A DNA stretch of 64,000 nt from Agromyces marinus. GTDB lineage: Bacteria > Actinomycetota > Actinomycetes > Actinomycetales > Microbacteriaceae. Under the pieces are notes generated by a model. The model had not been told where the DNA came from and made no database searches. It saw only the letters and a list, made by a program, of their open reading frames with translations. The stretch spans positions 1,426,001 through 1,490,000 of the forward strand of contig NZ_CP087879.1 in NCBI RefSeq assembly GCF_021442325.1, in the 5' to 3' direction. Below are positions 22,665 through 22,814 of this stretch, in pieces (the first letter of the stretch is position 1; every line of letters starts with the position of its first letter). A program made the position numbers and the translations under genes.

Positions 22665-22695
22665 TTGCCCCCAGCCTCGGCGACGGTGTTAGCCT
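22665..22695 (+). promoter_or_regulatory. promoter of the leuA leader transcript
   Basis: TTGCCC (22665-22670) and TAGCCT (22690-22695) are separated by 19 bases. The -10 box ends six bases before the leader-ORF GTG at 22702, so the leader peptide is probably read from a leaderless mRNA. Confidence 0.5.
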
Positions 22696-22701
22696 TGTCG
22701 C

Positions 22702-22746
22702 GTGCTTCACGGCCTGCTTCTCCTTAGCCGCCGCAGCGAGTCCTAG
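22702..22746 (+). CDS. leuA leader peptide, Leu-rich (14 aa)
   Basis: GTG-started ORF reading (M)[13 protein letters not shown] and then TAG. Five of 14 residues are leucine, four in a row, just upstream of leuA. Leucine-rich leader ORFs before leu genes sense charged tRNA-Leu by ribosome stalling, and such leaders are known from actinobacteria. The ORF runs into a hairpin (22731-22769) whose left arm is its last codons, so the stalled or released ribosome would decide whether the hairpin forms. No Shine-Dalgarno sequence; the GTG fits a leaderless start. Confidence 0.8.
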
Positions 22747-22769
22747 TTCACAGGCCTCCCTCGCTGCGG
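22731..22769 (+). promoter_or_regulatory. hairpin in the leuA leader
   Basis: Perfect 10-bp inverted repeat CCGCAGCGAG / CTCGCTGCGG with a 19-base loop that contains the leader stop codon. No U-rich run follows, so it is not a classical intrinsic terminator; it may be an antiterminator-like or translation-controlling structure whose formation depends on the position of the ribosome on the leader ORF. Confidence 0.65.
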
Positions 22770-22814
22770 AGTTCGTCGTCGGCTGAAACCCCCGAATCGC
22801 GAGAAGAGCACCCA

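Follow-up and report, generated by a model that had tools for sequence, protein, structure and literature searches.

How might a short reading frame rich in leucine codons, followed by a hairpin without a U tract, control the leuA gene behind it? This question is raised by a locus of Agromyces marinus, whose genome is 3.2 Mb in a single contig. The locus lies in a stretch of 64,000 nucleotides of that contig (NZ_CP087879.1, positions 1,426,001 to 1,490,000 of the forward strand), which we call the window and whose coordinates are used throughout. A first-pass annotation of the sequence had proposed a leaderless leucine leader peptide, possibly with control by mRNA folding, Rho or translation rather than by classical attenuation. 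We found that the element in the window is a member of the LEU element, which Seliverstov et al. described in 2005 for the leuA genes of most Actinobacteria (PMC1262725). As far as the accessible text of that paper describes it, the LEU element has the same position before leuA, a leader ORF with a run of Leu codons, a pseudoknot, and a base stem formed between Leu codons and the leuA Shine-Dalgarno (SD) sequence. From comparison of many copies, we think it probable, though well short of certain, that the LEU element is a leaderless, leucine-sensing translational attenuator of leuA.

Layout of the leader and the likely position of its promoter

The leader comprises 113 nt (22702-22814, + strand, as are all features below) between era, the gene upstream, and leuA (22815-24590), which encodes 2-isopropylmalate synthase (NCBIfam TIGR00970 and NF002991, above cut-off) and would be the controlled gene. 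Among the matches listed in a protein search, the closest relatives of this LeuA in named genomes are from Microbacteriaceae. The leader ORF of 14 codons runs from a GTG, read as methionine, to a TAG at 22744-22746 (22702-22746) and contains four consecutive Leu codons, CTG CTT CTC CTT (22714-22725). Six bases before the GTG stands the -10 box TAGCCT (22690-22695). A perfect 10-bp hairpin, P1 (22731-22769), starts in the last codons of the ORF; its 5' arm CCGCAGCGAG (22731-22740) and 3' arm CTCGCTGCGG (22760-22769) enclose a 19-nt loop that contains the stop codon. The ORF, its Leu codons, the -10 box and the hairpin had been described in the first-pass annotation, and every coordinate was confirmed. 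A second helix, P2, would pair GGCC inside the P1 loop (22753-22756) with GGCU behind P1 (22781-22784), giving 4 bp in this copy. The leuA SD, GAGAAG (22801-22806), is separated from the ATG by eight bases and is complementary to CUUCUC in the Leu run (22717-22722), with a duplex energy of -8.2 kcal/mol. The base stem of the LEU element is thus present in the window as CUUCUC/GAGAAG.

The reported lack of a U tract was borne out, as the interval 22600-22900 contained no terminator-like site and hence not the GC-rich terminator and U tract of a classical attenuator. A strict sigma-70 promoter scan of the same interval called no promoter, so the -10 box is assigned by position and conservation, not by consensus strength; TTGCCC (22665-22670) is a possible -35 hexamer, weak and with a 19-nt spacer. 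Searching Rfam at the gathering score gave no matches in window positions 15000-30000 or in 12 loci with leuA, leuC or leuB behind the element. The minimum free energy (MFE) of the single sequence was ordinary relative to shuffles (z -0.36), and it is by its conservation, not by single-sequence fold energy, that the element is more than chance.

The distance between the box and the start codon proved to be general. Outside Microbacteriaceae, 101 of 102 distinct loci (exception, L167) have a TAnnnT box within the 21 positions that precede the element, compared with 1 and 2 of 102 in two control windows further upstream. Within Microbacteriaceae, the gap from the box to GTG or ATG was 6 nt in 59 and 7 nt in 8 of 68 parsed copies; the remaining copy, for which an overlapping box had been scored, shows 7 nt on inspection. 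Over 155 leaders with a Leu run, the gap was 6 nt in 92, 7 nt in 29 and 8-10 nt in 31, and gaps of 8-10 nt would leave few bases ahead of the start codon. The fixed place of the box in all but one of the 102 loci suggests that being leaderless, or nearly so, belongs to the element itself, and we infer that the transcript of Agromyces marinus has its 5' end at or near the GTG.

This layout has a counterpart in Streptomyces lividans, where LeuL1, MRFGLLLLSCRGEGL, was reported to be transcribed leaderless and to lack a typical terminator (PMC8079986). A covariance model of the element (R1, below) locates it before leuA of Streptomyces albus, and the peptide read at that place is identical to LeuL1. 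Together with the box geometry, this Streptomyces relative strengthens the leaderless start proposed in the first-pass annotation. LeuL1 is a leader of the same type, but in the available text (PMC8079986) it concerns one gene in one organism and is listed as an attenuator, the mechanism not being the subject of that study. Leaderless polycysteine leaders of mycobacteria (Canestrari 2020, cited in PMC9031893 and PMC13236596) likewise are described as a short ORF with a run of cognate codons and control of the genes behind, and differ in having cysteine instead of leucine. In the literature as available, leu leaders have also been noted in C. glutamicum and C. diphtheriae.

Conservation of the element and its two helices

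DNA searches gave 80 matches to the element in 62 of 100 Microbacteriaceae genomes. We fetched 71 of these matches (nine were left out), and the gene directly behind was leuA in 55 and leuC in 16 (tblastn, 71/71); 68 of the 71 copies could be parsed (L014, L069 and L071 were left out). The commonest form of the leader peptide in the family is VLFGLLLLSCRDES. R1, which was built from 50 copies and contains neither promoter nor start codon, matched 257 of 296 genomes of the class, and a scan with a further model, R3, matched 224 of 246 genomes. So that the element itself played no part in the choice, we took the 80 loci most similar to the window LeuA by protein, the best 80 of at least 596 candidates. 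At E <=0.01, 76 of these 80 loci have the element upstream in the same orientation, with weak matches in two (L302 and L259); L258, L261, L270 and L271 were without the element, the last having only 223 nt upstream.

Another 110 loci were selected across the class because they scored high, widened the range of families or were second copies. Behind the element lay leuA in 86, leuC in 6 and neither in 17, and one locus (L137) was cut by the contig end. The leader peptide was read at 105 of these 110 loci (L078-L080, L094 and L096 were left out, three of them already in the family set), and a run of at least three Leu was present in 86 of 87 leuA or leuC loci, the exception again being L167. Both the leader ORF and the pairing are conserved through the class, so that the lack of conservation in relatives that was to refute the original proposal clearly does not hold. 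At one locus (L146), the leuA behind the element has only 30% identity. Divergent leuA genes with 54-58% identity to that of the window lie behind elements at nine loci in several large genomes, and another genome of the genus of the window (G310) has a third element copy (L109) before a divergent second LeuA with 57% identity.

For tests of the helices, 173 hairpin copies were reduced to 126 by removing near-duplicates and then to 120 by removing six with another helix or register. In 50 Microbacteriaceae copies, 500 of 500 cells of P1 were paired. In 60 copies from across the class the figure was 98.9% of 660 cells, and 7 of the 11 base pairs had changes on both sides. Versions of P1 slid along the alignment were 38-68% paired. 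On four of five measures, none of 500 shuffles was as good; the fifth, further pair types, was undistinctive (149/500). The window itself carries a compensated copy of P1, with CAGCG/CGCTG in place of the CGACG/CGTCG of most copies.

P2 joins the end of the P1 loop to a stretch about 11 nt behind P1. Outside Microbacteriaceae, native strands scored 18.03 compared with 15.50 (sd 0.31) for strands swapped between loci (0/5000, 70 loci), whereas the excess was weak inside the family (12.56 native, 12.06 swapped; 178/5000, 50 loci). In the larger set before the last cut, the values were 16.13 and 13.94 (0/5000). P2 is thus a feature of the family of elements, strong outside Microbacteriaceae and weak inside it, and together with the conserved P1 it points to the pseudoknot of the LEU element, in which P1 would form one half of an H-type layout. 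The Microbacteriaceae consensus also offers an attractive-looking alternative, helix A', in which the 5' arm of P1 pairs with the flank behind P1; it was rejected, as it showed no excess over swapped pairs (946/3000 and 2864/3000, in a grouping that counted a few Microbacteriaceae loci, L109, L110 and L117-L120, among the others). The MFE structure further suggested that GUGCUU at the 5' end pairs with the 3' side of the SD; this pairing was also dropped, being lost by eye in the sister copy L007.

The strong conservation of P1 and P2 would also be expected of a protein-binding RNA element, in which a regulator binds the pseudoknot and the peptide is incidental. Leifsonia xyli is a member of the Microbacteriaceae, the family of the window. 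It was among the genomes studied when the LEU element was described, and a DEAD-box helicase was proposed there as the regulator (PMC1262725). The authors reported a phylogenetic match with orthologues of ML1624, cited mutational work and concluded against codon sensing. In the text available to us, the mechanism was left open, codon sensing was set aside in favour of this hypothetical binding protein, and no permutation test of covariation appears. Binding to the pseudoknot does not account for the conservation, outside the structure, of the Leu codons, the start codon and the promoter distance, and we consider this explanation distinctly improbable.

Covariation of the Leu codons with the leuA Shine-Dalgarno sequence

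We examined whether the Leu run is matched to the SD region of its own gene. Over 126 distinct loci (the tests covered 126-140), native pairs scored 14.94 and swapped pairs 13.81 (sd 0.20), with none of 3000 permutations reaching the native value. Controls were flat, both for the Leu run with the next window upstream of the SD (708/3000) and for codons 1-4 with the SD (1786/3000). The excess was present in 67 Microbacteriaceae loci (15.55 native, 14.30 swapped; 0/3000) and in 59 other loci (14.24 and 13.28; 2/3000), and all four controls of this split gave 745-2437 of 3000. That the controls are flat argues against relatedness alone as the source of the excess. Leucine sensing, as proposed in the first-pass annotation, also gains support.

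Codon choice in the run is also unusual. CTT makes up 269 of 542 Leu codons (50%) in the runs, counted only in leaders chosen for LLL, compared with 137 of 5291 (2.6%) in the downstream genes, and CTG makes up 82 of 542 compared with 3008 of 5291. Of 154 leaders, 140 close the run with CTT. Real runs paired with the SD more strongly than synonymous draws did (-8.52 versus -7.68 kcal/mol; stronger in 94 of 154, p 2e-4). A single tRNA decodes both CTC and CTT, and the codon bias, taken by itself, could stem from a choice of tRNA-Leu. Taken together, the covariation of the Leu run with the SD and the CTT bias favour translational attenuation.

Such attenuation might operate as follows. Transcription would start at the GTG or within a few bases of it, and a ribosome would therefore load directly on the 5' end of the mRNA. 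When leucine is plentiful, the ribosome would pass the Leu codons, terminate at the stop inside the P1 loop and depart, whereupon P1 (and P2) would refold and the freed, pyrimidine-rich Leu run would pair with the leuA SD, keeping leuA translation low. When charged tRNA-Leu is scarce, the ribosome would stay on the Leu codons and cover the anti-SD strand and the base of P1, which would leave the SD open and raise leuA translation. Because the sensor codons would also be the strand that masks the SD, sensing and output would fall on one site.

Folding with a ribosome-sized mask, in sums that ignore the pseudoknot, gave a mean predicted SD accessibility of 0.215 in the free leader, 0.357 with the ribosome on the Leu codons and 0.261 with the ribosome at the stop codon. 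With the ribosome on the Leu codons, accessibility was above that of the free leader in 117 of 153 leaders and above that of the stop state in 111 of 153. The window element follows the model (0.27 free, 0.42 on the Leu codons, 0.17 at the stop), and the copy before leuC in the same genome goes against it (0.14, 0.19 and 0.47, respectively), its SD being more open with the ribosome at the stop than on the Leu codons.

Alternatively, translation of the leader could decide whether RNA polymerase stops, by Rho-dependent or other transcriptional attenuation, with P1 and P2 serving as a pause or Rho-blocking structure. The absence of an intrinsic terminator-like site means that any termination would be by Rho; Rho has been proposed for cys leaders (PMC1262725, in the text available), and any switch based on folding would agree with the covariation of P1 and P2. 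Such a mechanism does not, however, predict that the Leu run covaries with the SD, and we regard it as unlikely. The first-pass annotation named folding, Rho and translation together as non-classical routes of control; that general view is strengthened, and among the three routes translation has the strongest backing by virtue of the covariation with the SD. Absent from that annotation were the earlier publication of the element, the pseudoknot of which the hairpin is one half, and the ability of the Leu codons to mask the leuA SD.

Codon exchange in the leuC and leuB versions

A second strong copy of the element in the window genome lies before leuC, with the leader MLSGRLLLLRRDGASF and its own P1; the two remaining hits in that genome are weak (E 0.47 and 0.96). 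Of the 105 leaders read across the class, 17 were of a Val/Leu/Ile (V/L/I) type, such as MLWSVRILSCRDEAR and MRSVFVLIDCRGEA, which occurs in families other than that of the window; none of these precedes leuA or leuC. P1 covaries in these 17 copies too, with 98.9% of 187 cells paired. The next large gene on the same strand was leuB in 16 of the 17 loci; the unit is inverted in L174/L191. Of the 16 loci fetched at length, 11 have serA ahead of the element, 13 have ilvE behind leuB and 5 have cimA there, and all four enzymes were confirmed by NCBIfam at one locus (L198). Twenty further loci from the R3 scan contained 16 V/L/I leaders (15 before leuB and one, L231, inverted) and 4 leaders before leuA, three with LLL and one (L218) with GLFLP. 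V/L/I leaders with leuB behind occur in Haloactinopolyspora, Nocardioides, Phycicoccus and Actinomadura, and in Nonomuraea leuB lies about 2.1 kb further on.

LeuB serves leucine synthesis, IlvE that of all three branched-chain amino acids and CimA that of isoleucine, so the V/L/I codons match the products of the operon. This correspondence suggests that the leader peptide is probably the sensor. It also stands against the protein-binding explanation, as the codons become Val/Leu/Ile with the operon while the scaffold stays. The element might finally be a structural mRNA stabiliser or promoter-proximal hairpin without a regulatory role, which would fit a single sequence that folds no better than its shuffles. 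Where the next large gene could be classified, though, the element accompanies leuA, leuC or leuB with matching codons, the exceptions being the inverted L174/L191 and L231, and L317 with a foreign ORF in between; we give the stabiliser very little credence.

In the V/L/I version, the codon run showed no excess of pairing with the SD of a small ORF that follows the element (846/3000, 35 loci) or with the flank behind P1 (224/3000). This ORF, of about 27-55 amino acids, was present 16-310 nt behind the element in 38 of 38 loci, 37 of them distinct (L315 and L233 mark a single place in one genome), using a script that accepted any of three motifs. It ends like ALQEAMDRRDNGGETGH or LDLRDNGGERPDDN, or holds EWGPA; the conserved motifs are ALQxAMDRRDNGGE, LDLRDNGGERPDDN or EWGPA. 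Two examples gave no NCBIfam match and five no Pfam match above cut-off. Between serA and leuB, the element and the small ORF are inverted together in L191 (4800-5190) and L231 (genomes G297 and G306), so that leuB is not behind the element there, and in Nonomuraea an ORF on the opposite strand separates both from leuB. That the small ORF stays with the element when it is inverted or cut off from leuB suggests that the small protein is itself a target.

We therefore considered a broader reading, in which one leaderless P1/P2 scaffold with the stop codon in its loop is an exchangeable amino-acid gauge across Actinomycetes, with Leu codons before leuA and leuC and Val/Leu/Ile codons before leuB(-ilvE). 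The Leu codons would also mask the SD, and the constant target of the V/L/I version would be an undescribed protein of about 27-55 amino acids, not leuB. We would back this reading about as readily as we would doubt it. Short leaders with Val/Leu/Ile codons are likewise described for M. tuberculosis ilvB1 and other ilvB genes (PMC13236596 and PMC1262725, in the portions available). Those leaders have a terminator and U tract, whereas the V/L/I elements precede a small ORF and leuB and share the P1 scaffold of the LEU element. The accessible text on the LEU element (PMC1262725) contains neither leuB, ilvE nor the word leaderless, and the occurrences of 'leuc' in it stand for leucine or leucyl. 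Within the open-licence literature, as far as its text was accessible, we saw no leuC copy, V/L/I version, small protein or permutation evidence for codon-based SD masking. The general leaderless geometry, the covariation tests of P1 and P2, the covariation of the Leu run with the SD and its CTT bias, the leuC copy and the V/L/I version appear to be new.

Codon sensing is opened to direct test by three observations: the Leu codons covary with the SD, the geometry is leaderless, and the codons switch before leuB. If it is true, the LEU element would be a clear example from nature of a leaderless start that serves to gauge a nutrient, and a widespread one, judging by the class genomes that R1 matched.

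A profile of the small ORF matched 29 of 118 genomes of the class, including the family (f25) whose leuA leader is that of S. lividans; in the genome of the window it was not found at E 0.001. At eight loci, the leader sequence TCGTAC is complementary to the start of the small ORF, ATGTACGA, a possible case of start-codon masking.
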